Assembly (NCBI GenBank): GCA_003056165.1
Contig: LSNR01000019.1
Location: 1 to 40,637 of the forward strand
Reading direction: 5' to 3'
DNA from: Parcubacteria group bacterium M6-OD1-3
GTDB taxonomy: Bacteria; Patescibacteriota; Minisyncoccia; Moranbacterales; UBA9337
Length of the DNA: 40,637 nucleotides
Shown here: positions 4,939 to 21,352 of the stretch, one piece after another
Numbering within the stretch: position 1 is the stretch's first letter
Layout of the letters: each line of letters begins with the position of its first letter
Position numbers and translations under genes: made by a program
The notes under the pieces: generated by a model
Told to the model about the DNA's origin: nothing
Seen by the model: the letters and a program-made list of their open reading frames with translations, nothing else
Databases searched by the model: none

Positions 4939-7455
4939 ATGTATCATAAAAAAACTGGTAAAGATAATAATAAAAAAAGATCCTGGGGGAAAATTATTTT
5001 CAGAATAGTTGTTTCCCTTTTCGTGCTGGGAGTTATTTCCGTAATTGGTGTGTTTGCTTATTTTGCCAAAGATTTACCAAATCCGAATAAAGTTAATAAA
5101 CGAGTAATAGCACAATCTACAAAAATTTATGATCGCACCGGACAGCATTTACTTTACGAAATTCATGGAGAAGAAAAAAGAACACTCATTCCATTTAATC
5201 AAATGGGAGACAATATAAAAAATGCCACGATTGTTTTGGAGGATAAAGATTTCTACTATCATCACGGAATAAAACTGACATCCATTATGAGGGCAATGCT
5301 AAAAGATGTTCTTAAGCGAGGAGCGGCACAAGGAGGTTCGACTATTACACAACAACTTGTTAAAAATTCAATATTAACCAGAGAGCGGACGATGAGCAGA
5401 AAAATTAAGGAAGTAATATTGTCATTTGAAATTGAGCAAAAATTTTCCAAAGATGAAATTTTGAAAATGTATCTAAATGAAATTCCTTATGGTTCAAATG
5501 CTTACGGAATTGAAGCAGCTGCAAAAACTTTTTTTGGAAAATCTGCTAGAGATTTAACAATAGACGAAGCAGCTTTATTAGCATCACTTCCTAAAGCCCC
5601 AACTTACTATTCTCCATTTGGTTCTCATCGAGATAGATTGAAATCTCGGCAAGAAATGGCTATAAATAGTTTGGCGGAACTTGGCTATATCTCTAAAGAA
5701 GAAGCAGAGAATGCTAAACAGATTGATATCTTTAAGAAAATAGTTGTTCGTCAAGAAAATATGCAAGCTCCACACTTTGTAATGTATGTTAAGGAATATT
5801 TAGATAATAAATATGGTGAGCAAGAAATGAAAGAAGGCGGACTAAGTGTTTATACTACATTGGATTGGGATAAGCAACAAATTGCTGAAAAAGTTGTTAA
5901 AGAAGGTGCGGAGAAAAATTTAAAAAAATGGAACGCAGAGAACGCTGCTTTAGTGGCGATTGACGCAAAGACTGGACAAATTTTAGCAATGGTTGGAAGC
6001 AAAGATTACTTCGACAAATCAATTGATGGACAAGTTAATGTAGCACTTAGTAGACGACAACCAGGATCTTCTTTTAAACCCTATGTTTATTTAACAGCTT
6101 TTACAAAAGGGTATTTGCCAGAGACAATTCTTTATGATGTAGAAACTGATTTTAATAAAGGTAGCGATGATGATTATATTCCACAAAACTATGATGGAAA
6201 ATTTCGTGGTCCGGTTAAAATGCAAGAGGCGTTGGGAATGTCGCTAAATGTTCCAGCAGTTAAAACACTTTATCTTGTGGGAGTAAAAGATGCTATTAAA
6301 ATGGCAAAAGACTTGGGGATTACCGGATTGAATTATCCAGATCGTTATGGATTGTCGCTGGTTCTTGGTGGCGGTGAGGTGAGGTTATTAGACCATACCA
6401 ATGCCTTTGCAACATTGGCAGATGGTGGAATTAAGCATAACAAGACTGCTATTCTTAGAATTGAAGATAAGGATAAAAAGATAATTGAAGAATTTAAAGA
6501 TAATCCAGGAGACCGAGTCGTAGAAGAAAAATATGTGGCAATGCTTGATTATATCATTTCCAATAATAAATTTCGAGCACCGGCTTTTGGGGAGCAAAAT
6601 CCTTTGCGATTTGATAATCGCCAAGTTGTCGCTAAGACTGGAACGACAAATGAATTTCGTGATGGTTGGACAATGGGATACACACCATCGATTGCTGTTG
6701 GAGTTTGGGCGGGAAATAATGACAATAGTCCAATGAAACCTGGGGCAGCAGGAGCTAATGTAGCATCACCTATCTGGAGAAGTTTTATGGATAGTGTTTT
6801 AGAAAATTACAATACTGAAGAGTTTCCAAAATATGACGAAGAAGAAGTTTTAAAAGAGGTTGACAAACCCATTCTCAAGGGAGATTTAGATATCAAAAAA
6901 AAGGTTGAAGTTTGTGAAATTCCTGGTGAAAAAAATAAATGGTGTTTGGCTAGTAAATATTGTCCAAATAAAGAAAGGAAGAAGAAAACTTTTGTGGAGG
7001 CACACAATATTCTCTGGTATGTTGATAAGAAAGATCCGCGTGGAGATATTCCGAAACATCCAGAAAAGGATGCTCAGTTTAATCGCTGGGAAGAAGCTGT
7101 GCAGAAGTGGTACAAAAAGAATAAAAAGAAAAAATATATTTTAGATAGCATCCCAGAAAAAGAATGTCGAGAAAATGATTTTACAAAGTATAAGCCAGAT
7201 GTTGATTTAAATGTTTCAAAACAAAACATTGCACAATTAAAAATTTCCGCTGATAGCAAAGCTGATTATGGAGTGGATAGTATCAAAATCTATGTAGATG
7301 GGCATGAAATTGGTTCAACAGGAAGTAGCTCAATCAGTCTTGTTTATGATGTTCCGGCAGAGAAAAATAATTCTACATTAAAAATTACAGCTAAGTTGAA
7401 GGATGAAAATGGAAATGAGACAGACGACAGTCAGAATGTTAATATTAGCTTTTAA
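4939..7455 (+). CDS. Class A penicillin-binding protein (PBP1A family)
   Basis: 838 aa; GT51 EDKDFYYHHG and GAAQGGSTITQQLVKN, transpeptidase RRQPGSSFKPYVY and VAKTGTTNEFRDGWTMGY; C-terminal Ig-like tail. Confidence 0.95.
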   Translation: MYHKKTGKDNNKKRSWGKIIFRIVVSLFVLGVISVIGVFAYFAKDLPNPNKVNKRVIAQSTKIYDRTGQHLLYEIHGEEKRTLIPFNQMGDNIKNATIVLEDKDFYYHHGIKLTSIMRAMLKDVLKRGAAQGGSTITQQLVKNSILTRERTMSRKIKEVILSFEIEQKFSKDEILKMYLNEIPYGSNAYGIEAAAKTFFGKSARDLTIDEAALLASLPKAPTYYSPFGSHRDRLKSRQEMAINSLAELGYISKEEAENAKQIDIFKKIVVRQENMQAPHFVMYVKEYLDNKYGEQEMKEGGLSVYTTLDWDKQQIAEKVVKEGAEKNLKKWNAENAALVAIDAKTGQILAMVGSKDYFDKSIDGQVNVALSRRQPGSSFKPYVYLTAFTKGYLPETILYDVETDFNKGSDDDYIPQNYDGKFRGPVKMQEALGMSLNVPAVKTLYLVGVKDAIKMAKDLGITGLNYPDRYGLSLVLGGGEVRLLDHTNAFATLADGGIKHNKTAILRIEDKDKKIIEEFKDNPGDRVVEEKYVAMLDYIISNNKFRAPAFGEQNPLRFDNRQVVAKTGTTNEFRDGWTMGYTPSIAVGVWAGNNDNSPMKPGAAGANVASPIWRSFMDSVLENYNTEEFPKYDEEEVLKEVDKPILKGDLDIKKKVEVCEIPGEKNKWCLASKYCPNKERKKKTFVEAHNILWYVDKKDPRGDIPKHPEKDAQFNRWEEAVQKWYKKNKKKKYILDSIPEKECRENDFTKYKPDVDLNVSKQNIAQLKISADSKADYGVDSIKIYVDGHEIGSTGSSSISLVYDVPAEKNNSTLKITAKLKDENGNETDDSQNVNISF

Positions 7456-7581
7456 AACAGTTGTGATTTAAAAAAATAGTCTAGCGATAGTTCTTCAGAA
7501 TGAGAATAATTTTTTTAGAACAAAAAATTGCAAATAGTATAGTATCGTATGAAACTGTGCTATTCGTGAAAAAAATTAAAA

Positions 7582-9696
7582 ATGAATAACAATAAAAAAA
7601 AAGATTTGGAAAGAATGTTTAGTCCGCGAGAGGTGGCGGTTGTGGGAGCGACGGAAAAAGAGGGAAAGATTGGCAATATTATTGCTCGTAATCTTTTGGG
7701 ATTGGGTTATGAAGGAAAAATTTTTTTTGTTAATCCGAAACATAAAACACTTTTTAAGAAAAGAAGTTATAAATCTCTAACGGAAATTGATGATAAGATT
7801 GATTTGGCGATAATTGCCGTTCCGGCAAAATTTGTTAATCAAATTGTTGATGAAGCGAAAAATAAGGTGAAAAATTTTGTAGTAATTTCTGCCGGTTTTG
7901 CTGAGATGAATTTGGAGGGGAAAAAACGAGAAGAAGAATTATCAACAATGGCTGAAAAATATCAATTAAATATCTTAGGTCCAAATTGTCTGGGATTTAT
8001 CAATCCGAAAATAAAATTAAACGCATCTTTTGCTAGTGATTTGCCCAAGCAAGGTGGAATTTCTTTAATCTCTCAATCGGGAGCCTTGATGGTGGCAATG
8101 ATGGATAAGGCAAGACAAGAAAGTTTAAAATTTTCGCAAATTATTTCAGTTGGGAATAAAATGCAGTTGGATGAAGTCGCTTTATTAAAATATCTCGAAA
8201 GTGATCAAGACACTAAAGTGATAGCTATTTATTTAGAAGGAATAAAAAATGGTAAAGAGCTCGTGAAAACGGCGAAAAAAATTAATAAACCGATTATAAT
8301 TTTGAAAGCTGGAAGAAGTGAAAAAACTTTACAAGCTATCTCTTCTCATACTGGCTCCTTAGCCGGTAGTGATGAAATTGCTTCGATAGCCTTCGCTAAA
8401 GCGGGAATTTTGCGCGTGCAAAGCTTGGAAGAATTTTTTAATACGATAAAATTTATTTCCAATTATACTGACGAGAAAGATAATATTCGCGATTTTAAAA
8501 ATAGTGTGATTATTACAAATGCTGGTGGTCCGGGAGTTTTGGCAACGGATGTTTTTGCAGAAACAAGATTACAATTAGTTGATTTATCTTCGGAAACAAA
8601 AGATACTTTACAACAATTTTTGCCAATGGAAGCATCGGTGGAAAATCCAGTTGATTTATTAGGTGATGCTGATGAAAGTAGATATGAACAAGCTTTAAAG
8701 ATTTTATCCAACGAAAAAGAGTTGGATACTATTTTTTGTTTATTGACTGCTCAAGACCAAACACCGACGGAAAAAATTGCTCAAGTGTTGGTTAATTTTT
8801 CTAATGAGAATGATAAAAGAGTTATTCCTATTTTTATAGGTGCCGAAAAAATCAATAAGGCTGTAAATATTTTGGAAAAAAATAATTTACCAAATTTTTC
8901 TTTTCCAAAAATGGCAATTAAGGCGGTGGATAGAATCTATAATTGGCAAGAAAAAAGGAAAGAATTGCAATTAGATGAAGCTTCCGTTTCAGAAAAAAAT
9001 GTTGGTCAAGTTGAAGTTATTAGAAAGAGTCAGCAAATAATTAAAAACGCAATTAAAGAAAACAGAAAAGCATTATTGTTCGCGGAAGCGACGGAAGTAA
9101 TGAAAAATTATAATATTCCAACAGTTGATTTTGTAAATTTTGTCGATAAAAAATTATGGAATAATCTTTCTACCGCTAAATTGAAATTTCCAGTAGTGTT
9201 AAAAATTGATAGCGATAAAATTTTACACAAAACAGACCGACAGGGACTAATTTTAAATATTGATAATAAAAAAGAATTACGGCAAGCTGTCAAAAAAATG
9301 TGGACTAATTTTCCAGGTGAAAAACTTTTAGCTCAGTCGATGATTGTTTCGCAATCGGAATTAATTTTGGGATTAAAAAGAGACCCTATTTTCGGAGCGA
9401 CAATTGTTTTTGGTTTAGGCGGAATTTATACTGAAGTTTTTAAAATGGTTGATTTTATGTTATTGCCGTTGACAAGAAAAGAAATTAAAAGAAACATACT
9501 GCAAAGCAAAATCAATTTTCTATTCCAAAAAACTCGCGGAAAAATAATAGCGGATGTTGATGAAATGACGGATTTGATTTTTAACTTTTCTCGTTTGGCT
9601 GAAGATTTGCAACAAGTTAAAGAAATAGATATAAATCCCTTATTAATTAATAAAGAAGGTAAATTTCTGGCTGTCGATATAAAAATAATGATTTAA
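7582..9696 (+). CDS. ADP-forming acetate/acyl-CoA synthetase (alpha-beta fusion)
   Basis: 704 aa; CoA-binding MFSPREVAVVGATEKEGKIGNIIARNL, GPNCLGFINP, ISSHTGSLAGSDEIASIAFAKAGILR, C-terminal ATP-grasp FPVVLKIDSDKILHKTDRQGL, GATIVFGLGGIYTEVFKMV. Confidence 0.92.
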   Translation: MNNNKKKDLERMFSPREVAVVGATEKEGKIGNIIARNLLGLGYEGKIFFVNPKHKTLFKKRSYKSLTEIDDKIDLAIIAVPAKFVNQIVDEAKNKVKNFVVISAGFAEMNLEGKKREEELSTMAEKYQLNILGPNCLGFINPKIKLNASFASDLPKQGGISLISQSGALMVAMMDKARQESLKFSQIISVGNKMQLDEVALLKYLESDQDTKVIAIYLEGIKNGKELVKTAKKINKPIIILKAGRSEKTLQAISSHTGSLAGSDEIASIAFAKAGILRVQSLEEFFNTIKFISNYTDEKDNIRDFKNSVIITNAGGPGVLATDVFAETRLQLVDLSSETKDTLQQFLPMEASVENPVDLLGDADESRYEQALKILSNEKELDTIFCLLTAQDQTPTEKIAQVLVNFSNENDKRVIPIFIGAEKINKAVNILEKNNLPNFSFPKMAIKAVDRIYNWQEKRKELQLDEASVSEKNVGQVEVIRKSQQIIKNAIKENRKALLFAEATEVMKNYNIPTVDFVNFVDKKLWNNLSTAKLKFPVVLKIDSDKILHKTDRQGLILNIDNKKELRQAVKKMWTNFPGEKLLAQSMIVSQSELILGLKRDPIFGATIVFGLGGIYTEVFKMVDFMLLPLTRKEIKRNILQSKINFLFQKTRGKIIADVDEMTDLIFNFSRLAEDLQQVKEIDINPLLINKEGKFLAVDIKIMI

Positions 9697-9727
9697 TCTG
9701 GCACTTTAAATTTTTGGAAAACAATTT

Positions 9728-10939
9728 ATGATTATAATTATTCACTATAATGAAATAGGACTTAAAGGTGGAAACCGTGATTGGTTTGAAAAAAAATTGG
9801 TTCAAATTATAAGAGAAAAAATGCGAAAAGATGGTTTTGTTGATTTTGAAGTGCGAAGAATTATTGGGAGAATTTTGTTGAAAATTGTGGACCAAGAATT
9901 AGGAATCAAAAAAGATTTTGAAGAGTTATTAAAAAAAACTGTTGATAAAGTTGAAGCGATATTAAAAAATACCTTTGGAATTGCAAATTTTTCTTTTGCT
10001 AAAGAGGTTTCGCAAGATATTGAAATTTTGAAGAAAGAATGTTGGAAATTATTAAAAAACAAAAAATTTAAAACTTTTCGCATTACGACACAACGGTCAA
10101 ATAAAAAATTTCCAATGACTTCGGAAGAAATTAATCGGGAAATTGGCGGTTATATTTTTGAAAAATTGGAAAAGAAAAATTTAAAACCCAGTGTCAGTTT
10201 GAAAAATTCTGATATAGAATGTTTTATTGAAATAGTTAATAAAACAGCTTTTATTTTTATGAAAAAGATAAAAGGACCGAATGGAATGCCAGTGGGAACT
10301 GGCGGAAAAGCATTGGCAATGCTTTCGGGAGGTATTGATTCGCCAGTAGCTGGTTATTATGGCTTAAAAAGAGGCGTGGATGTTGATTTTATACATTTTC
10401 ACTCATTACCATATACATCTACGGCTTCTAATGAAAAAGTGGAGGCATTGGCAAAAAAACTTTTAAAATTTCAACTAAAGGCTAAAATATTTATGGTACC
10501 TTTTGCGAAAATTCAGCAAGATATTGTGATGAATTGTCCGGAAAAATTGCGAGTAATAATGTATCGGCGTTTAATGTTAAAAATTGCCGAGAAAATTGCT
10601 CAAGAAAAAAAATATTTAGCACTATATAGTGGGGAATCAGTGGCACAAGTTGCCTCTCAGACTTTGGAAAATATTCTATCTACCAATGATGCTATTTCAA
10701 TAACAGTTTTGCGTCCATTGTGCGGATTTGATAAAGCGGAAATTATAGAAAAGGCTCAAGAAATTGATACTTATGATATTTCCATTTTGCCTCATGAGGA
10801 TTGTTGTACGCGATTTGTTCCTAAGCATCCGGAAACTCGTGCGAAATTGAAAGATGTTAGAGAGGCTGAAAAAAATCTTGATACTGAGAAAATAATTCAA
10901 GAAGCTATTGAAAAAATGGAAATTATAAAGATTTCTTAA
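9728..10939 (+). CDS. thiI: tRNA 4-thiouridine sulfurtransferase ThiI without C-terminal rhodanese domain
   Basis: THUMP-like N-terminus, PP-loop MLSGGIDSPVAGYYGLKRG, FIHFHSLPYTS, ESVAQVASQTLENI, HEDCCTRFVPKHPET. Confidence 0.93.
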   Translation: MIIIIHYNEIGLKGGNRDWFEKKLVQIIREKMRKDGFVDFEVRRIIGRILLKIVDQELGIKKDFEELLKKTVDKVEAILKNTFGIANFSFAKEVSQDIEILKKECWKLLKNKKFKTFRITTQRSNKKFPMTSEEINREIGGYIFEKLEKKNLKPSVSLKNSDIECFIEIVNKTAFIFMKKIKGPNGMPVGTGGKALAMLSGGIDSPVAGYYGLKRGVDVDFIHFHSLPYTSTASNEKVEALAKKLLKFQLKAKIFMVPFAKIQQDIVMNCPEKLRVIMYRRLMLKIAEKIAQEKKYLALYSGESVAQVASQTLENILSTNDAISITVLRPLCGFDKAEIIEKAQEIDTYDISILPHEDCCTRFVPKHPETRAKLKDVREAEKNLDTEKIIQEAIEKMEIIKIS

Positions 10940-11104
10940 AAAAAGATAATTTTAGCAATCGTATTTTTCAAATCTAAAATTAATTATAAATATCACATCT
11001 CAAAAATGAGTTTTAGAATTTAATCTGTTAGAAATGAATTTTATTTAGGTGGATAAAATTTATTGGTTGAATTCTATTTACTGATAGATGGAAAATATAA
11101 ACTT

Positions 11105-11590
11105 ATGAAAATTTTAGGAATTGACCCTGGAACAGCCACAACTGGTTGGGCGATTTTGGAGGAAAAAAAAGGTGAAATTATGCCGATAGCTTACGGACAC
11201 ATTTCTACATCTCCCGATGATTCGACTAGTATGAGATTAAAGGAGGTGGCTGATGATATTGAAAAAATAATTCAAGATTACAAACCGCAAGAGAGTGCCA
11301 TAGAAGATATTTTCTTTTTTAAAAATGTTAAAACGGCTGTAAAGGTTAGCCAGTCGCGCGGAGCAATGCTTTTAACTTTGGAAAAAATGAGTGTAAAAAT
11401 TTTTGAATATACTCCACTACAGGTAAAGCAAGCGATTACCGGTTATGGTCGGGCGGAAAAAATGCAGGTACAGCTTATGGTGAAAAATATTTTAAATCTT
11501 AAGCAAATTCCCAAACCGGATGATACCGCCGACGCAATTGCCATTGCCTTATGTCATTTGCAGAGTAGAAAATTGCTTAATTTATGTTGA
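11105..11590 (+). CDS. ruvC: Holliday junction resolvase RuvC
   Basis: MKILGIDPGTATTGWAIL, AIEDIFFFKNVKTAVKVSQSRGAMLL, KQAITGYGRAEKMQVQ, DDTADAIAIALCH. Start moved from 11063 to ATG at 11105. Confidence 0.95.
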   Translation: MKILGIDPGTATTGWAILEEKKGEIMPIAYGHISTSPDDSTSMRLKEVADDIEKIIQDYKPQESAIEDIFFFKNVKTAVKVSQSRGAMLLTLEKMSVKIFEYTPLQVKQAITGYGRAEKMQVQLMVKNILNLKQIPKPDDTADAIAIALCHLQSRKLLNLC

Positions 11591-11615
11591 CTTTATGAGA
11601 AAAAGAGAATATTAT
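11587..11615 (+). promoter_or_regulatory. Predicted promoter of the 7TM/ATP-grasp cluster
   Basis: TTGACT (11587-11592), 17-nt spacer, TATTAT (11610-11615). Confidence 0.5.
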
Positions 11616-11756
11616 AAAAAATCAATATTTGGTGCTATAATAAAAATATTGAAGAGGAGGTGTTTTTAATTTTTTTTAGTTAGTAAGATCGTTTTCGGAT
11701 AAATTTTTTTCAATTTTTTTCAAAAGAATTTATGTGAGAATAGTTTATTTTTTCTT

Positions 11757-12425
11757 ATGTTTAATTATTTGACAATTGATTACTTTGTTTCACAAGGTGT
11801 TCCTCAGGAAAGTATCTTGCTTATTTTAATGTTGCCAATTGTAGTAACATTGATAGCTTTTTTCCGTCAAGTTTTTGGTATCAAATCTTTTGGTATTTAC
11901 ACACCATCAATTACTACCTTTGCTTTCTTAGTAATGGCTGGTGAAGCTGGTTCAAAGGGAATAAAATATGGAGTAGCTATTTTTATCAGCGTTATTCTGG
12001 TTGGAATGGCAACTCGTTATATTCTTAAAAAATTTAGATTGCTGTATCTTCCTCGAGTGGCAATTACATTAAGTGTAGTGGCATTTTCGATTTTAGCGGT
12101 ATTGGTTTTAGGAGGTTCAATGCAGAGGACAGGATTAGCTTCAGTTCCTATCTTCCCTCTTTTAATTATGATTACTATTGTAGAAAAATTTGTGTCTGCT
12201 CAAATTCAAAAAGGAAATAGAACAGCTTTTATTCTGGCAACAGAAACACTATTCATATCTCTGGTCGGATATTTTATTATAAGTTGGAATGTGGTAATAG
12301 TTACTGTTTTAGCTCATCCATGGATTGTATTATTAACAATTCCAATCAATATATTTTTAGGCAAATGGACAGGTTTGCGTGTTTTGGAATATTGGAGGTT
12401 TAAAGATGTTTTAAAAAAAATGTAG
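11757..12425 (+). CDS. 7TM membrane protein (7TM domain normally fused to an inactive transglutaminase)
   Basis: 222 aa; ILMLPIVVTLIAFFRQVFGIKSFGIYTPSITTFAFL...GIKYG and following helices fit the 7TM_transglut type; next to ATP-grasp/RimB fusion. Confidence 0.75.
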   Translation: MFNYLTIDYFVSQGVPQESILLILMLPIVVTLIAFFRQVFGIKSFGIYTPSITTFAFLVMAGEAGSKGIKYGVAIFISVILVGMATRYILKKFRLLYLPRVAITLSVVAFSILAVLVLGGSMQRTGLASVPIFPLLIMITIVEKFVSAQIQKGNRTAFILATETLFISLVGYFIISWNVVIVTVLAHPWIVLLTIPINIFLGKWTGLRVLEYWRFKDVLKKM

Positions 12426-12463
12426 ATAGCCTCTTTAAAATTAACAGTTAAGATTTCAAAATA

Positions 12464-13864
12464 ATGCTTGATTATTTAAAAAATAGAAAAAAAATATTGG
12501 GAATGAATTCCCGATATTTGCAATATATTCGTCCCAACAATCTCAAAAGAGCAATTAAGATTGCAGATGATAAATTATTGAGCAAAAAAGTTTTGCAAAA
12601 AAATAAAATTCCAGTACCGAAATTAATTGCCAAAATTACCAGCCATGAGGAACTGGAAAATTTTAATTGGGACAAATTACCAAATAGTTTTGCATTAAAA
12701 CCAAATAAGGGTTTAGGCGGAGCGGGAATTGTGGTTGTTTTTGGAAGAAAGAAAAATAGGGAAGATGCTTGGGTTAAAGCGGATAGAAAAATTGTGACCA
12801 TAGAGGATCTCAAAAGTCATATCAGAAATATTTTAGATGGAAATTTTTCACTTTCTGGTGTTCCAGATATTGCTTTTTTTGAAGAAAGATTGACATTATT
12901 GAAGCTTTTTAAGCCATATGCTTTTAGGGGAATTCCAGATATTCGTGTAATCGTTTATAATCGAGTACCGATAATGGCTATGTTACGGTTACCTACAAAA
13001 GAATCACGAGGAAAGGCTAATCTTCAGCAGGGTGGAATTGGTGTTGGAATTGATTTGGCTACTGGCATAACGACGACAGCAGTCCAAGGGAAAAAATCAA
13101 AAATTATTGAAGATATACCTGATACGCGACTTAGTGTTTCCGGACTTAAAATTCCTTTTTGGCGAGAAATTTTAGAATTAGCAATAAGCACACAAGATGT
13201 TTCCGGCTTGGGATTTTTAGGTGCAGATGTAGCTATAGACAAAGAGCGTGGCCCAGTTTTTCTAGAGCTTAATGCGCGCGCAGGATTGTCAATTCAAATT
13301 GCTAATTTGGCTGGATTGCAAGAACGAATGGAAAGGGTGGATGGATTGAAAATTAAAACAATAAAGCGTGGTGTGAATGTGGGAATGGATTTATTTGGTG
13401 GAGATATTGAGGAAGAAGTGGAAGAAATTTCCGGTAAAAAAGTGATTGGTTTTAAAGAGACGGTAAAATTAGTTGGGCGAAATGGAAAAGAATTGGAAGT
13501 TAATGCTAAAATTGATACTGGGGCATATACTTCGTCGATAGATGAAGAATTGGCAAAAAAATTAGGATTTGAAAAAACGATGGATAAATTTAATGCTATT
13601 GGAAAAACTTATGAAGAATTAAAAGATTTGGATAGAAATGAACGGTGGCGAATATATAGAAATATTCCTAATTTAGCGTCAACAGTTATGGTTAGTTCTT
13701 CGCACGGAACAACATATCGACCAATAATAAAATTAAATTTTGTTATGGATGGACTTCCGGTGATTGCCAAGATGACGGTCATTGACCGTTCTCATTTAAA
13801 ACATCAAGTAATTATCGGGCGAAGAAATTTGAGTAAATTTATGATTGATGTCAGCAAAATATAA
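12464..13864 (+). CDS. ATP-grasp ligase fused to a RimB-like (ATP-dependent zinc protease/retropepsin-like) domain
   Basis: 466 aa; N-terminal ATP-grasp LPNSFALKPNKGLGGAGIVVVFG, GPVFLELNARAGLSIQIANLAG; C-terminal VNAKIDTGAYTSSIDEELAKKLG, HQVIIGRRNLSKFMIDVSK. Confidence 0.88.
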   Translation: MLDYLKNRKKILGMNSRYLQYIRPNNLKRAIKIADDKLLSKKVLQKNKIPVPKLIAKITSHEELENFNWDKLPNSFALKPNKGLGGAGIVVVFGRKKNREDAWVKADRKIVTIEDLKSHIRNILDGNFSLSGVPDIAFFEERLTLLKLFKPYAFRGIPDIRVIVYNRVPIMAMLRLPTKESRGKANLQQGGIGVGIDLATGITTTAVQGKKSKIIEDIPDTRLSVSGLKIPFWREILELAISTQDVSGLGFLGADVAIDKERGPVFLELNARAGLSIQIANLAGLQERMERVDGLKIKTIKRGVNVGMDLFGGDIEEEVEEISGKKVIGFKETVKLVGRNGKELEVNAKIDTGAYTSSIDEELAKKLGFEKTMDKFNAIGKTYEELKDLDRNERWRIYRNIPNLASTVMVSSSHGTTYRPIIKLNFVMDGLPVIAKMTVIDRSHLKHQVIIGRRNLSKFMIDVSKI

Positions 13865-13954
13865 AGATTAAATATTTAATTAAAGATTAATTTCCAAAAA
13901 GATGATTTGTGTACATATGTCTCAGTGTGCATTAAGTTGTCTATTAAAAATAGT

Positions 13955-14812
13955 ATGAATTTTTTTTGTATTTCTACTAAAAAACAAAAAATAACTAGAG
14001 GGTTGCTAAAAAAATCAGCTGAAGAACGAGGTCTGAAATTTATCAATATTGATGTTAATAATTTTGATACTTTAGATAAAAAATATCAGAACAATGAGGG
14101 TGTTTTGTATCGAATAACCTCTGGAGAGTTGGCAAAAAACATTGAACTTTTTTTGTTGCAAAAAAATAATCTGGAAACTTTTTATAAAACTAATAAGCGA
14201 GCGTTTTTTAATGCTTTGGATATTCCATTACAAAAATTTTATAACATTTCAATGCCAAAAACAGTAACTATTCTTAGTGATAATTATGAAACATTAAAAG
14301 CAATCGTTGAAGAAGTCGGTGGATTTCCAGTTATTTTGAAAGTAACCGGTTTAAGTCATGGGGCGGGAGTAATGAAGATGAATTCTATGGAATCACTTAT
14401 TTCTGTAATTGGTTTTTTAAAAAAAAACGGAGCGACAAGAATGGTTTTGCGAGAGTATATTGATTCTTATAGGCATGCTCGTTTGGTAGTGCTGGGTGAT
14501 AAGGTTGTGGACAGTATTGAATATATTGTTCCAGAAAATGACTTTAGGACCAATGCTGGAAAACCGCAGGTTAAGGCGGAAAAATTTTCCGATGATTTTG
14601 AAAAAATAGCTATTGAAGCCATTAAAATTATTGACTTAGAATTTGGTGGGGTGGATATATTAATTGGAAAAGATAGTAGTCCGTATTTGGCTGAAGTTAA
14701 TTTTCCCTGCTATTTTCCTAGAAATCAATTAACTACAGGTGTGGATATTTCCGGAATGATGGTTGAGTATTTAGTTGATAAATTTAATAAAAAAAATGAA
14801 AAAGACACTTAA
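13955..14812 (+). CDS. RimK-like ATP-grasp ligase
   Basis: MNFFCISTKKQKITRGLLKKSAEERG..., FPVILKVTGLSHGAGVMKMNSMESL, LREYIDSYRHARLVVLGDKVV, PYLAEVNFPCYFPRN. ORF track starts at TTG 13907; ATG 13955 preferred. Confidence 0.85.
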   Translation: MNFFCISTKKQKITRGLLKKSAEERGLKFINIDVNNFDTLDKKYQNNEGVLYRITSGELAKNIELFLLQKNNLETFYKTNKRAFFNALDIPLQKFYNISMPKTVTILSDNYETLKAIVEEVGGFPVILKVTGLSHGAGVMKMNSMESLISVIGFLKKNGATRMVLREYIDSYRHARLVVLGDKVVDSIEYIVPENDFRTNAGKPQVKAEKFSDDFEKIAIEAIKIIDLEFGGVDILIGKDSSPYLAEVNFPCYFPRNQLTTGVDISGMMVEYLVDKFNKKNEKDT

Positions 14813-15740
14813 AAATAAAATAATCTTGGAAATCAAAAAAGCCGCACAAAAAAAAGGGGTTGATTTTGAATTTATTTATCGGACATATTATTATTTAATG
14901 AAAGCTGACAAGAAGATACTGTTTACGGAAAGTATGCCTGAAACTACTAGTGCAATTAGTTATCGCTTGACTGAGAATAAATTTCTAATGAATGTGTTTT
15001 TGAAGAGATGGAGATTTCCTGTACAGGTAATGGAGCGTTATTCAAGTATAGAACAAGCAATTTCTTTTTTGAAAAAATATAAAAAAATCGTTGTTAAACC
15101 GGAGCGAGGAATGCATGGCAAAGGAATAACTGTCGGACTAACGAATGAAAAAGACTTACCTTTGGCAATTGCTTTTGCTCAAAAAAACGATGTTTATCAA
15201 AAAGTTATTTTGGAAGAGTTTAATCAGGGCGATGATTATAGAGTATTGGTTATTGGCAAGAAAAAAGTTTTTGTTTCTAAAAAAGAACCGGTTTTTGTGG
15301 TTGGAAACGGTAAAGATAAAATAATTGATCTATTGCAAAAGCGAAATAAAAATCTAATAAAGAGATATCAAGCGGAAAGAGATGATATTATGGAAAAATG
15401 TTTGCAAGAGCAATGTTTATCTTTTTCTGATGTTCTTGAAAATGGTCAAAAAATATATTTGAAAAAAACTGCTAACATAAAAAGTGGCGGAACGCCAACT
15501 GATTATACTGATAAAATTTCTCCCAAAATTAAAAGTGTCGTAATAGAGATTGCTAATAAATTAGAAATGGATGTAGCTGGCTTTGATATAATGACTGAAG
15601 ATATTTCCAGTGAAGATTTTGAAATTATTGAGATAAATGCTTATCCTGGACTGTTGTTGCATATTTATCCCGTCAAAGGAAAATCTTACAATGTTGCTGA
15701 TGAAATTGTAAAGTATTTTTTCTTTTCTAATAAATTTTAA
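14796..15740 (+). CDS. CphA/GshAB-like ATP-grasp ligase (stand-alone)
   Basis: KIVVKPERGMHGKGITVGL, FVVGNGKDKIIDLLQKRN, LKKTANIKSGGTPTDYTDKISPKIKSVVIEIANKLEMDVAGFDIM, FEIIEINAYPGLLLH. Starts inside the upstream gene (14810-14812 stop); ATG 14796 preferred to TTG 14775. Confidence 0.85.
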   Translation: MKKTLKNKIILEIKKAAQKKGVDFEFIYRTYYYLMKADKKILFTESMPETTSAISYRLTENKFLMNVFLKRWRFPVQVMERYSSIEQAISFLKKYKKIVVKPERGMHGKGITVGLTNEKDLPLAIAFAQKNDVYQKVILEEFNQGDDYRVLVIGKKKVFVSKKEPVFVVGNGKDKIIDLLQKRNKNLIKRYQAERDDIMEKCLQEQCLSFSDVLENGQKIYLKKTANIKSGGTPTDYTDKISPKIKSVVIEIANKLEMDVAGFDIMTEDISSEDFEIIEINAYPGLLLHIYPVKGKSYNVADEIVKYFFFSNKF

Positions 15741-15764
15741 AATAGACTTCTTGTAAAACTATCG

Positions 15765-15794
15765 TTTACTGCAATTTATTATTTTTGGTAAAAT
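15765..15794 (+). promoter_or_regulatory. Possible internal promoter upstream of the third RimK-like gene
   Basis: TTTACT (15765-15770), 18-nt spacer, TAAAAT (15789-15794). Confidence 0.35.
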
Positions 15795-15805
15795 TTATTT
15801 CAAAC

Positions 15806-15900
15806 TTTCTTACATTAGCTAAGGCTAAAGTTTCAAAAGTTATTCAATCAATTTTACTCAAAACTAGTAAATTTCGTAACAAAGCTAGTTTTGTAAGAAA
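15806..15900 (+). promoter_or_regulatory. Candidate structured 5' leader (three-way-junction-like)
   Basis: Outer stem TTTCTTACA (15806-15814)/TGTAAGAAA (15892-15900); hairpin TTAGC/GCTAA (15815-15828); hairpin AAACTAG/CTAGTTT (15861-15891). Confidence 0.4.
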
Positions 15901-15915
15901 TCTAATATAAATATA

Positions 15916-16809
15916 ATGAAAAAATTGTGGATTATTACATTTGGTGAGTGTTTTAGATTAAACAGGCTTAAGGAAGCATGTGAAAAAAGAAATGTAGAGT
16001 TGGAGGTTATAAAAACCTATAATGTGCATATTACAAATAATCAAGTAATCTCTGATGGAAAAAAAATTAATTTTAAAAAAGGTGATATTGTTTGGACAAT
16101 TTCCAACAATGCGGCAGCACATCACTTGATTCGTTATTTGACAGCAAGGTTTAAAAAGGAGATAAAGTTTATTTGGACAAATACTGGAGCAATAAATTAT
16201 GCAGATAAATTTTATGGGAACAGTTTTTTTACTTCAATGAATATTCCAACTCCGAAAACTGTTTTTATAAACACATTTAAAGATTATAAATTAGATAATT
16301 TAGCAAAATATGTTGGGGGATTTTCTTGTGTAGTTAAGGCTAATATTGGTTCAATGGGGAATGGTGTAGAAATAGTTAGTTCAACTAGTGATGTTAAAGA
16401 ATTTATTAAAAAAAAGATGGAGGCACAAGTAGATGTACCTTTTCGCAGAAGTTCTTTTATTTTGCAAGAATTTATCAAAGAGTCAGCGGGAACCGATTTT
16501 AGAGTCTTGGTTTTAAGGGGAAAAATTCTGGGTGGAATTAGGAGAAAATCTGTTAATGGCGATTTTCGTGCCAATGTTTCTTTGGGTGGTAAAGCGGAAA
16601 TTGTGGAAGTGGACAAAGAGATGAAAAAAATGGCGAAGAAAATTATGAAAGAGGGAGATATTTTTTACGCCGGAATTGATTTTATAAAAAGCAAGCGCGG
16701 TTATCTCGCTTTGGAAATAAATACTTCCGCTCAATTTAAAGGGTTTGAAAAAGCCACCGGCGTAAATGTTGCTGGAAAAATAGTGGATGCGTTGATGGAG
16801 AATGTATAG
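15916..16809 (+). CDS. RimK-like ATP-grasp ligase
   Basis: 297 aa; GGFSCVVKANIGSMGNGVEIV, LQEFIKESAGTDFRVLVLRGKILGGIRRKSVNGDFRANVSLGG, YLALEINTSAQFKGFEKATGVNVAGKIVDALM. Confidence 0.9.
   Translation: MKKLWIITFGECFRLNRLKEACEKRNVELEVIKTYNVHITNNQVISDGKKINFKKGDIVWTISNNAAAHHLIRYLTARFKKEIKFIWTNTGAINYADKFYGNSFFTSMNIPTPKTVFINTFKDYKLDNLAKYVGGFSCVVKANIGSMGNGVEIVSSTSDVKEFIKKKMEAQVDVPFRRSSFILQEFIKESAGTDFRVLVLRGKILGGIRRKSVNGDFRANVSLGGKAEIVEVDKEMKKMAKKIMKEGDIFYAGIDFIKSKRGYLALEINTSAQFKGFEKATGVNVAGKIVDALMENV
16760..16797 (+). repeat. 38-bp direct repeat, copy 1 (inside ATP-grasp C-terminus)
   Basis: GCGTAAATGTTGCTGGAAAAATAGTGGATGCGTTGATG, identical to 18249-18286. Confidence 0.97.
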
Positions 16810-16839
16810 ATAATTATTTTTTTAAAAATTGATAAAATT

Positions 16840-18240
16840 ATGAAAGAAGGAAGATTTGAAATAATTAAAAATCGTCGGAAAGATGTTGTTGAAAAAATAT
16901 CCGATGATAAGAGAAAGGACAGAGGTTTGATTCGTCGAGAGGTTTTGAAATTGAGTCAGCGAGAAGATAATAACCTTTCTAGTAAAGAAAAACAGGAAAT
17001 TATTGATAGAATGATAAGCAGACATATGGAAGTGCATCATATTGGTGAAAAAGGAAATAATACTTGCGTAGATTCGCTACATTCTCAAGTAGCGAATACC
17101 GGAGAAATTTTAAACATTTTGCGAAAAAGGGGAGATTTTGGAGATATTGATAAATCCATTATTATTGATTTGGAATCAAGAATTAATACGAAAATAATGA
17201 GGCAATTTCCGCAAAAAAGAGTATCTGAAATTGTTGAAGAAATTTTGCAAGAGGGAGAATTTAAAAACGATAAGTTGTCCAGAGTTATCTTGAAAATCAA
17301 AAAGTTATACGAAGATTACACTGGAGAATTAGCTGTAAATTCTGCAATAAAAAGTGAGAGTTCTTATTTCATTGCCAGATTTAGTAGGAGATATTTGGAT
17401 GCAAATCGTCCACTTAATGCTCGTAAAATAAAAAAATATTTACGAGTGGAGTTTGGTCAGGGACAGCATTTAGCACAATATTATCTGTTGCAAAGAATTT
17501 TCAGAGAGACTCTTGGTCAAGAAAAAGAAGGAGAAGTTGAAAAACCATTTTTGCACATTTCTTTGCATGGAAAATCTGACAAGCCGGATGATGTTGGTGA
17601 TGTTATGATTGCCAATGGTTTGAAAAAAGGAATGATGCCGTGTGATCCTCAAATAGCTCGTTGGTTTGAGAAAAGATTAAATGAAAAAATGAAAAGCGAA
17701 AAAATGAAAAAGAATAACGATGGTGACTATTTTTCAGCTGGAGTTTCTCGGGAAGGGCAACGATTTTGTGGAAATGTTATTCATTGTGAGCGTCGTTTTG
17801 GCAATGATTTCTTAAAGCCATTGGGAAAAAACTATCAGTTTATTCAGGTTGAAATTTCGCCAAAACTAAGAGCTCAGCATTTTGAAAAATTAAGCGAAAT
17901 ACTGGCGGAAATTTTAAAGGAATTTAATGAACAATTCAGAGACAAGGGGCAACTGGAAACTTTTTTGAAATCAAATAAAAGCAAGGAAGATGACATCAGA
18001 TTAGAAGGAAAGTTGTATTCCAAAATTGGTTTTGATGAAAATATTTTATCCGGGAAAATTTTAATGGGTGCTAGCCATAGAATGGCATTAGATGTGAATA
18101 TTGGTGACAAAGTATTAGTGGATGGAGAAGAGTTTATTGTAGACAAAATGACAAAAAACAAAATTTCTTTTAGGCAACCATTTATAGGAGGAAATAATAT
18201 GGATATGGTCAACAAAAAGGTTGTTATTAAAAAAAAATAA
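16840..18240 (+). CDS. N-formylglutamate-amidohydrolase-like protein with unusual N- and C-terminal extensions
   Basis: 466 aa; YFIARFSRRYLDANRPL (D-x-NR motif), PFLHISLHGKSDKP, QFIQVEISPKLR fit the FGase superfamily; small C-terminal beta-rich-looking region IGDKVLVDGEEFIVDKM. Confidence 0.6.
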   Translation: MKEGRFEIIKNRRKDVVEKISDDKRKDRGLIRREVLKLSQREDNNLSSKEKQEIIDRMISRHMEVHHIGEKGNNTCVDSLHSQVANTGEILNILRKRGDFGDIDKSIIIDLESRINTKIMRQFPQKRVSEIVEEILQEGEFKNDKLSRVILKIKKLYEDYTGELAVNSAIKSESSYFIARFSRRYLDANRPLNARKIKKYLRVEFGQGQHLAQYYLLQRIFRETLGQEKEGEVEKPFLHISLHGKSDKPDDVGDVMIANGLKKGMMPCDPQIARWFEKRLNEKMKSEKMKKNNDGDYFSAGVSREGQRFCGNVIHCERRFGNDFLKPLGKNYQFIQVEISPKLRAQHFEKLSEILAEILKEFNEQFRDKGQLETFLKSNKSKEDDIRLEGKLYSKIGFDENILSGKILMGASHRMALDVNIGDKVLVDGEEFIVDKMTKNKISFRQPFIGGNNMDMVNKKVVIKKK

Positions 18241-18248
18241 AGCTACTA

Positions 18249-18286
18249 GCGTAAATGTTGCTGGAAAAATAGTGGATGCGTTGATG
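18249..18286 (+). repeat. 38-bp direct repeat, copy 2 (orphan ATP-grasp C-terminus)
   Basis: Identical to 16760-16797; in frame encodes KATSVNVAGKIVDALMKK* with no upstream gene body. Confidence 0.97.
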
Positions 18287-18331
18287 AAAAAATAAGAATA
18301 GTGAAAAATGTAATTATTGCAGATAATATAA

Positions 18332-18360
18332 TTGCTTAAATTTGAATAGTTGTTTATAAT
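18332..18360 (+). promoter_or_regulatory. Predicted promoter of the DUF4870-like gene
   Basis: TTGCTT (18332-18337), 17-nt spacer, TATAAT (18355-18360), followed by AAGGAGGTG upstream of ATG 18407. Confidence 0.5.
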
Positions 18361-18406
18361 TAAATTAAAATTAGTTTAAATTTTAAAAGAAAGGAGGTGT
18401 ATTATT

Positions 18407-18898
18407 ATGGAAGAGCAAAATAAAACACGAGAGGAAGAGCAGGAAGGAGTAATGGGCAATGAAGAAAAATCTCAGTCTCAATCTCAGACAAGTGAGATTA
18501 AAGCTGAAGATAATGTTGCAACCAGTGTTGGGGAAACGAAAACTCAGCCAGCTCAATCCGAAACTACACCTACAAGCGAAGTTGAGAACGGTGATGATAA
18601 GGATAAGGATATTGAAGAAAATAAATTTATTGCGTCGCTAAGTTATTTGGGAATATTGGTATTGGTACCGTTGTTAGTAAAAAAAGACAGTAAATTTTCT
18701 CAATTCCACGCTAAGCAAGGATTAGTTCTATTGATTATTTGGGTAGTTGGTTGGGTATTTTTCTGGATTCCAGTTTTTGGTCAAATTTTGTTGTTAGCGT
18801 TAATGATATTGAATATTATCGCTTTCGCACAAGCGTTGAGTGGAAAATACTGGGAAATTCCGGTAATTAGTGATTGGGCGAAAAAAATAAATTTATAA
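18407..18898 (+). CDS. DUF4870-like membrane protein
   Basis: Low-complexity Gln/Ser/Glu N-terminus, then IASLSYLGILVLVPLLVKKDSKFSQFHAKQGLVLLIIWVV...GKYWEIPVI. Confidence 0.75.
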   Translation: MEEQNKTREEEQEGVMGNEEKSQSQSQTSEIKAEDNVATSVGETKTQPAQSETTPTSEVENGDDKDKDIEENKFIASLSYLGILVLVPLLVKKDSKFSQFHAKQGLVLLIIWVVGWVFFWIPVFGQILLLALMILNIIAFAQALSGKYWEIPVISDWAKKINL

Positions 18899-18925
18899 GC
18901 CAAAGTTTATAAATTGTTATTTTTG

Positions 18926-18956
18926 AAAAACTCACAGATTTTGTCTGTGGGTTTTT
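18926..18956 (+). terminator. Intrinsic terminator
   Basis: AAAAACTCACAGA / TCTGTGGGTTTTT stem-loop followed by T-rich tract. Confidence 0.8.
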
Positions 18957-19060
18957 TATTTTTGTTTTGAATATAGATTGAAATATGTTAAAATGAAAAA
19001 AGTTAAAATATAAAGATAGAGAAAATTCAATTGGTTAAATTTTTTTTAAAGATTAAAACT

Positions 19061-19624
19061 ATGTTTGAAAAAAACAAAAAATATATAATTATTTTAGCAG
19101 TAAGTGTAATTTTTGTTATTAGCAGTATTGGTATTTTTTTAAAAATAGAAAAGGCTAATAATAAGAATGATAATAGTAATAAACAAGGAGAAAGCATCGA
19201 AGATACTGAGAAAAAAGAATATGAAGTTTTGGTCTTTGTAAGAAATCAAAGCAACTCTAATCCGGAAGAAGATAGAAGAAGTTCTATGAAGAAGGGATAT
19301 GTTATTGGTGTTTATAATAATGAACATAATTGGTCTAATGCGGAAAAGACGAGTTACTTAATTTTAAAAATGAACTTGACCAACAAAGAAAAGACAATGT
19401 TGGTACAACCGGTGGAAAAAGAAATTCAAAAAAAAGATTTATCAGAGGAAGATCAAAAAATGTTGGAAGATGAAGGACAAGAAGTAAAAAAAGAAACTGT
19501 TGGAATGCGGGCGTATAAAATAAATTTGGAAAAAATAGGTTTTGATAATCCAAAACAGCTTGTAAAGGGTCAGCCGTTTGAGGAACAATCTTTTGGTTGG
19601 GAGATTGTGGAGAAGGTAAAGTAG
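19061..19624 (+). CDS. Membrane-anchored protein of unknown function
   Basis: ATG 19061 MFEKNKKYIIILAVSVIFVISSIGIFLKIEK: one N-terminal TM, charged extracytoplasmic region. ORF track starts at 19031. Confidence 0.65.
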   Translation: MFEKNKKYIIILAVSVIFVISSIGIFLKIEKANNKNDNSNKQGESIEDTEKKEYEVLVFVRNQSNSNPEEDRRSSMKKGYVIGVYNNEHNWSNAEKTSYLILKMNLTNKEKTMLVQPVEKEIQKKDLSEEDQKMLEDEGQEVKKETVGMRAYKINLEKIGFDNPKQLVKGQPFEEQSFGWEIVEKVK

Positions 19625-19630
19625 TTTAAT

Positions 19631-21352
19631 ATGATTTGGAAAATAGCAAATAGCTTAGACGGCAATAAAAATGTAATTCTGGACGGACAATCTTTTTCTG
19701 TACATCCGGTGGTTTTGGATATTTTAATTCGACGAGGCTTTAAATCGCCAGAGGAAATTAAAAGTTTTCTTTTTCCGAATTATGAAAATGATATCTCCAG
19801 CCCGTTTCTTTTCTCTGATATGAAAAAAGCGATAGGGCGGTTGAAAAAAGCAAAAGAGAAAAATGAAAAAATTTTAATTTCCGGAGATTATGATGCTGAC
19901 GGAATAACTTCTTCTTTGGTATTAAAAAATGCTCTAGAAGAGATCGGTTTGGAAGTTTTTGTGTATATTCCACATAAAGAAGAAGATGGTTATGGCTTAA
20001 ATTTTAAAGCTCTGAAAAAATTTTCAAAAAAAGGTGTTAGTTTAGTAATTACGGTTGATTGTGGAATTAGTAATATCCAAGAAATAAAAGAAGCTAACAA
20101 AATAGGTTTAGATGTTATTCTCACTGACCATCACCATATTCCGCCGAAAATTCCTGATGCTTTAGCAATTATAAATCCTAAATTACAAAAATCTGGTTAT
20201 CCGTTCAACGAGTTGGCAGGCGTTGGAGTGGCTTTTAAATTAGCACAGGCAATCTATGAAACTTTTTTGCCTAAAAAAAAGGAACAATTAAAATGGCTTT
20301 TAGATTTGGTAGCAATCGGAACAATTGCTGATATGGTGCCTTTGGTCAGAGAAAATAGAACAATTGTAAAGTTTGGACTACTTGTGTTATCTAAAACAAA
20401 GAGAATTGGTTTGCAGGAAATTTTTAAAACAGGTGGAATTTTGATTGATGAAAATAATTTTCCGACCACGCAAAAAATTTCTTTTCAAGTTGCTCCACGT
20501 ATCAATTCTGCTAGCAGAATGTCGCATGCGGAAAAAGCGTTTTTTTTATTGGATGAAGAAGATCGAGTGACGGCACGAGTAATGGCGTTGGAATTAGAAA
20601 GTCAAAATACTCAGAGACAAAAAGAGACACAAAGAATTTCTTCGGAAGTGGAAAAGATTGTTAAAAATAATTTTGTTAATAAAAATTTTATTTTTATTAA
20701 CAAAGAACATTTCCCAGTTGGCATTTTAGGATTGGTCGCGGGAAGAATTAGTAATAATTTTAATAAACCGACAGCTATTCTTAAAAAAGGAAAGGTTATG
20801 AGTAAAGGGTCTTTTCGCAGTATTCCACAAATAAATATTATTGAAATAATTGAGCAATGTGGTGAGTTACTGGAAGGTTATGGAGGTCATTCGCAAGCTG
20901 CAGGAATTACCGTTAAAAATAAAAATTTGCAAAAATTTTATGAAAAAATGAATGAATTAATTGAAGAAAAACTGCAAGGAAAAGACTTGACGCCAGAAAT
21001 TAAAATTGATGCGGAAATTTCCCCGACTGACATCGGTTTTGATTTAATAGATGATTTAATAAAAATGGAGCCATTTGGTCAGGGAAACAAAGAGCCAATA
21101 TTTTTATTGCGTAATTCAATAATTAAAGATCTTAAGTGGTTGGGAAATGGTGAAAAACATTTAAAATTATTTTTACGACCGATGGATAATAGTCCAAAAA
21201 TATTTGAAGCGATTGGTTTTAGTATGTTGGATAAATTTTCCGAATTAAAAGTTGATGATAAAATAAATATAATCTTTAATCTCAGTCGAGATGAATGGAA
21301 TGGTAATGAAAAAATTCAGATGAAAATTATAGATATAAAGGTGGTTGCTTAA
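19631..21352 (+). CDS. recJ: Single-stranded-DNA-specific exonuclease RecJ
   Basis: 573 aa; ISGDYDADGITSSLVL, VITVDCGISN, ILTDHHHIPP, GYGGHSQAAGITV, MEPFGQGNKEPIF. Confidence 0.95.
   Translation: MIWKIANSLDGNKNVILDGQSFSVHPVVLDILIRRGFKSPEEIKSFLFPNYENDISSPFLFSDMKKAIGRLKKAKEKNEKILISGDYDADGITSSLVLKNALEEIGLEVFVYIPHKEEDGYGLNFKALKKFSKKGVSLVITVDCGISNIQEIKEANKIGLDVILTDHHHIPPKIPDALAIINPKLQKSGYPFNELAGVGVAFKLAQAIYETFLPKKKEQLKWLLDLVAIGTIADMVPLVRENRTIVKFGLLVLSKTKRIGLQEIFKTGGILIDENNFPTTQKISFQVAPRINSASRMSHAEKAFFLLDEEDRVTARVMALELESQNTQRQKETQRISSEVEKIVKNNFVNKNFIFINKEHFPVGILGLVAGRISNNFNKPTAILKKGKVMSKGSFRSIPQINIIEIIEQCGELLEGYGGHSQAAGITVKNKNLQKFYEKMNELIEEKLQGKDLTPEIKIDAEISPTDIGFDLIDDLIKMEPFGQGNKEPIFLLRNSIIKDLKWLGNGEKHLKLFLRPMDNSPKIFEAIGFSMLDKFSELKVDDKINIIFNLSRDEWNGNEKIQMKIIDIKVVA

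Follow-up and report, generated by a model that had tools for sequence, protein, structure and literature searches.

The 40,637-nucleotide contig LSNR01000019.1 of Parcubacteria group bacterium M6-OD1-3 (the window, the whole stretch of DNA analyzed here) contains a 38-bp direct repeat on either side of a single accessory enzyme gene, g466, and this arrangement is a real but ordinary bacterial recombination scar and represents neither a mobile element nor a novel system. One copy of the repeat lies within the 3′ end of a RimK-family ATP-grasp ligase gene (gene D), and the other stands directly behind g466. The explanation that we prefer, and which we hold at about even confidence, is that this second copy is the original 3′ end of D, displaced and left stranded when g466 was added.

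The 38-mer GCGTAAATGTTGCTGGAAAAATAGTGGATGCGTTGATG occurs, as originally noted, in exact copies at 16760-16797 and 18249-18286, and the two copies can be aligned over 53 nt with 91% identity (16750-16802 and 18239-18291, forward strand, with a start-to-start spacing of 1489). No other exact direct repeat in the 40.6-kb window comes close to it in length, the second longest being 21 bp, and a chance origin is excluded because the longest repeats in 60 first-order Markov sequences of the window reach only 15 to 19 bp. A DNA search of the genome's own 818-kb assembly finds these two copies only. Past the 53 nt, neither flank has similarity above that of shuffled sequences, the 90 nt upstream included, and the downstream flanks of the two copies are unalike (478 of 1000 shuffles are as good). 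An Rfam scan of positions 15700-19700 gives no match, and the repeat is thus not a known RNA element; a role for copy 2 as a terminator or promoter was rejected by pattern scan.

Gene D (15916-16809, forward strand) codes for a 297-aa protein that matches Pfam RimK (5e-38), ends in GFEKATGVNVAGKIVDALMENV before its stop codon, and scores 165.3 bits against TIGR00768 (RimK family alpha-L-glutamate ligase), above the curated cutoff of 143.4. Copy 1 of the repeat is the functional 3′ coding end of this gene. Copy 2 reads KATSVNVAGKIVDALMKK with an in-frame stop directly after it but has no start codon in its own frame and is an untranslated stub; as had been claimed, it lacks a body, and no ATP-grasp sequence is found upstream of it, the homology to D ending abruptly at the g466 stop. 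Copy 2 does adjoin g466, although it does not lie wholly behind the gene as described, since its alignment starts within the g466 TAA, whose final two bases are 18239-18240. At this left joint (18230-18242, forward strand), the A-rich end of g466 (AAAAAAAAATAA) abuts sequence that reads GAAAAAGC in D, and the microhomology consists of a few A residues. Three core differences separate the copies (GCC/GCT, ACC/ACT, and GGC/AGC), of which two are synonymous; copy 2 has Ser in place of Gly282, which is invariant in ten aligned D orthologs.

The two copies also end differently, D with MENV-stop and copy 2 with MKK-stop, and it is the in-frame KK-stop of copy 2 that favors a displaced gene end. Three of the nine orthologs in an alignment of D from nine relatives end in this way (LLKK, LLKK, and LVKK), whereas AA[AG]AA[AG]-stop is rare between the genes of the window, at just 5 of 5814 positions, a comparison that was made post hoc, after the ending had been seen, and that counts as support and not as proof. 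Fusion across the repeat removes g466 and leaves an intact D ending in GFEKATGVNVAGKIVDALMKK (LMKK-stop), with the length and form of the G017 and G039 genes; as this is an ordinary D, what lies to the right of copy 2 is probably the sequence that originally followed the gene. The suggestion that copy 2 is the tail of an original or paralogous ATP-grasp gene therefore holds to the extent that it looks like a genuine displaced gene end, although a full second D, sought in the same genome, is not seen. GC3 toward the 3′ end of D is 0.34 to 0.38 versus 0.14 to 0.28 elsewhere, which fits a mosaic gene, but at about two standard deviations and noticed post hoc this was set aside.

The gene between the copies, g466 (16840-18240, forward strand), is co-directional with D, starts 30 nt behind it, and is predicted to code for an FGase-like amidohydrolase with a double-psi-beta-barrel-like segment in its C-terminal half. 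The window protein has no Pfam or NCBIfam match, the CDC48_N/DPBB matches of its relatives are weak and sub-threshold, and its homologs score 14 to 17 bits against PF05013 (N-formylglutamate amidohydrolase), below the gathering cutoff of 28.9. The family has the motifs SRxxxDxNR and HxSxHG, with invariant residues R183, D187, N189, R190, H239, S241, and H243, and we take these motifs to resemble those of FGase. An hhalign comparison of the family with a G500 protein that has an FGase domain above cutoff gives 95.8% (E 6.7e-9). The motifs and the profile match make the original label of amidohydrolase-like a fair reading, but the cutoff for FGase proper is not reached. A single-sequence AlphaFold model of g466 (pLDDT 37.6) was unusable, and a scan of genome contigs for close relatives, with g466 as the query, gives no match.

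Within the order, g466 is present in 3 of 132 genomes (that of the window, G006, and G017), always directly behind D; more widely, there is one distant match in 387 class genomes and there are four, also distant, in 381 phylum genomes. The gap between D and g466 is 23 to 30 nt in all three carriers, which points to a putative functional pair, with g466 as the accessory partner of D. Elsewhere in the phylum, ruvC and ATP-grasp genes are again accompanied by distant relatives, of the g466 or FGase-domain kind, in G688 (L106:1800-6445) and in G500 (L110:13-8418), where the FGase-domain protein sits in a 7TM/ATP-grasp cluster, supporting a functional link. In G006 and G017, g466 is not followed by another D tail, and the repeat is thus limited, among the genomes seen, to the lineage of the window. 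G001, G033, G045, and G023 lack g466 behind their D ortholog, and pbp comes next instead. The proposed comparison with an empty site finds its pair in the sister genus g7, not in the window's own genus: G006 is occupied and G009 is empty, both flanks are common to the two, and in G009 the left homology stops and the right homology starts within one AAAA (a 4-bp microhomology). Gain or loss of g466 by microhomology joining is thus seen at this site elsewhere, and comparison of these genomes indicates that g466 is a presence/absence gene at this position, apparently gained or lost by such joining. Of the two origins first proposed, the one that fares better is gene insertion that duplicated a gene 3′ end, as g466 is present or absent at this very site.

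The att-like nature suggested for that insertion is not borne out. Some integrative elements target the 3′ ends of protein genes, as e14 does in icd, and the geometry here is fitting, with a gene 3′ end, direct repeats on either side of the gained segment, and a hybrid gene carrying a new end; the 38 bp would then be attL and attR of a small element that targets the D 3′ end and supplies a replacement. Such an element is nevertheless very improbable, with no integrase in the 1.49-kb unit or the window, and with G006 and G017 carrying g466 at the same site without the repeat. No g466 is found in phage and plasmid collections, PHROGs gives no match, and the 38-mer is absent from viral contigs. 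The search of the genome, which is about 94% complete, was for integrases of the tyrosine type, and its sole PF00589 match lies on contig C11 (L114, G000:C11:18099-18320) and is a fragment of 74 aa interrupted by a stop.

Displacement of the D end is envisaged to have started in a cell with D and without g466, which would have taken up D-g466 DNA from a close relative. On one side, within D, recombination would have relied on homology; on the other it would have been illegitimate, with the A-rich terminus of g466 fused to the A-run a little ahead of where the resident D stops. The donor tail (MENV-stop) would have completed a functional gene with g466 coming in 30 nt behind it, and the resident tail (MKK-stop) would have been left behind g466, where it would then have decayed (Gly to Ser). 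From these sequences we infer three things: that the event was a gain and not an in-place duplication, what the donor was, and that homology-facilitated illegitimate recombination was the mechanism. One-sided homology is accommodated by D, which in the order's three carriers always stands directly before g466, and the other joint has short or no homology, with only an A-run shared there. Two joints would suffice, a homologous one in D and one by microhomology at the A-run. ComEC is encoded in the genome, so DNA uptake by this lineage is possible. Some observations stand against displacement: Ser at an invariant Gly means that copy 2 must have decayed since, yet 38 neighboring bases are identical; and the similar GC contents of g466 and D (0.325 and 0.326) count against it, though a close donor would give no difference. 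After displacement, g466 could loop out via the 38-bp repeats, leaving D intact. That this recombination serves as a reversible switch, looping out g466 and swapping the end of D (MENV-stop or MKK-stop) with both forms in the population, has at most a slim chance of being right.

The gene order around copy 2 bears on a different origin. The next gene downstream (18407-18898, forward strand) codes for a DUF4870-like membrane protein, and in the relatives examined DUF4870 precedes pyruvate kinase, so that the g466/DUF4870 neighborhood is specific to this lineage. The order in relatives is ruvC-7TM-ATPgrasp/protease-...-D-(g466)-pbp, with acs before recJ, and that of the window is pbp-acs-thiI-ruvC-...-D-g466-copy 2-DUF4870-...-recJ. 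Copy 2 thus sits exactly on a lineage-specific joint. Nothing else speaks as strongly for a templated insertion at a rearrangement, in which g466 would already have been behind D and template switching would have copied 53 nt of D into the g466/DUF4870 joint. The A-run microhomology at the left end agrees with this, g466 behind D is the arrangement of two other genera, and a single small event suffices. We consider it possible but doubtful: the MKK-stop ending would be a coincidence of A-rich sequence, although KK-stop in the right reading position is rare intergenically and common in D orthologs by the counts above, and the rearrangement is probably far older than the 94%-identical core.

A genuine gene end in copy 2 would also be accounted for by a tandem duplication (D-g466-D′) that collapsed when D′ was deleted to its last 53 nt, and ATP-grasp paralogs do lie in tandem in the window (B, C, and D) and form tandem arrays in relatives. 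This is unlikely, as two events are required, the intergenic regions contain no trace of a D body or of another g466 start, and the g466-bearing relatives have no D′; the unalike flanks past the two stops leave a duplication reaching beyond the stop unsupported. No convincing intergenic remnants of other deleted genes are found in the window. An assembly artefact, in which strain haplotypes D-MENV-stop-g466 and D-MKK-stop-DUF4870 were joined by the assembler, deserves mention, as the genome is in 26 contigs and may be metagenome-derived, and both haplotypes are biologically plausible. However, the distinct flanks of both copies are in one contig, the copies differ within the 53 nt, and the joint of g466 and copy 2 overlaps by only a few bases, making such a join a far-fetched source of the repeat.

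Among known systems, the site resembles the variable segments of bacterial genomes, 10 to 18% of which are flanked by short direct repeats (PMC2884548), in being a single-gene presence/absence segment with short direct repeat bounds, for which illegitimate recombination is a likely source and loss by repeat collapse is possible; most repeats there are shorter than 30 bp, whereas here the repeat is 38 bp and one copy is in a functional coding end. Vibrio T6SS effector arrays provide a described case of displacement by homology-facilitated illegitimate recombination, with orphan 3′ ends left behind (PMC5361080). As in those arrays, the gained module would be anchored on one side by homology and the old 3′ part pushed downstream, but whole orphan immunity genes stay there and a 53-nt non-coding stub stays here, the gain here being a putative enzyme gene and not a toxin module. 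This type of recombination is one of naturally transformable bacteria and has been inferred in Vibrio and in E. coli and S. aureus comparisons (PMC5361080, PMC2884548). The likeness to e14-type elements lies in the gene end duplicated on either side of the gained segment and the replacement 3′ end; unlike them, the site lacks an integrase, and the other carriers have no repeat there.

The locus shows accessory enzymes of an ATP-grasp/amidohydrolase cluster coming and going at a single fixed position, without mobile elements, in a lineage of small genomes, and an exact empty site is predicted. The more useful lead is the uncharacterized FGase-like family of g466, linked to one RimK-type ligase in three genera; D and g466 may be a ligase and its putative cognate hydrolase, comparable to RimK and RimB.

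Several other features of the window are of note. Positions 4939-21352 are permuted relative to relatives, with pbp upstream of the ATP-grasp cluster and not behind it, and a block of about 10 kb parts acs from recJ, which are neighbors in the family genomes examined. Upstream of D, an rlo-like cluster (11757-13864), whose order is conserved across relatives, codes for a 7TM_transglut protein of 222 aa that lacks the transglutaminase part and then for a TIGR02291-like ATP-grasp in fusion with a retropepsin-like domain. The rlo operon of Pseudomonas aeruginosa codes for the retropepsin RloA, the inactive transglutaminase-7TM protein RloB, and the ATP-grasp RloC (PMC12239564); the cluster here likewise has an RloB-type 7TM protein and, in one protein, an RloC-like ATP-grasp and an RloA-like retropepsin domain. 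It differs in this fusion of ATP-grasp and protease, in its 222-aa protein matching the 7TM part only (PF14402), and in the presence of three more ATP-grasp genes and an FGase-like gene. The spacer between C and D (15743-15905) is a largely self-complementary, MITE-like element of about 160 nt (TAGACTTC...GAAATCTA; DNA fold z -4.6), with two further genome copies on C16 and C19 at 73 to 78% identity, and a perfect palindrome, AATCATTTTCCCACGGCCGTGGGAAAATGATT, is intergenic at 2016-2047. The AAA ATPase-type protein encoded at 631-1797 has a strong match to PADLOC PDC-S01, a candidate defense family (E 8e-148), and may belong to a common ATPase family.
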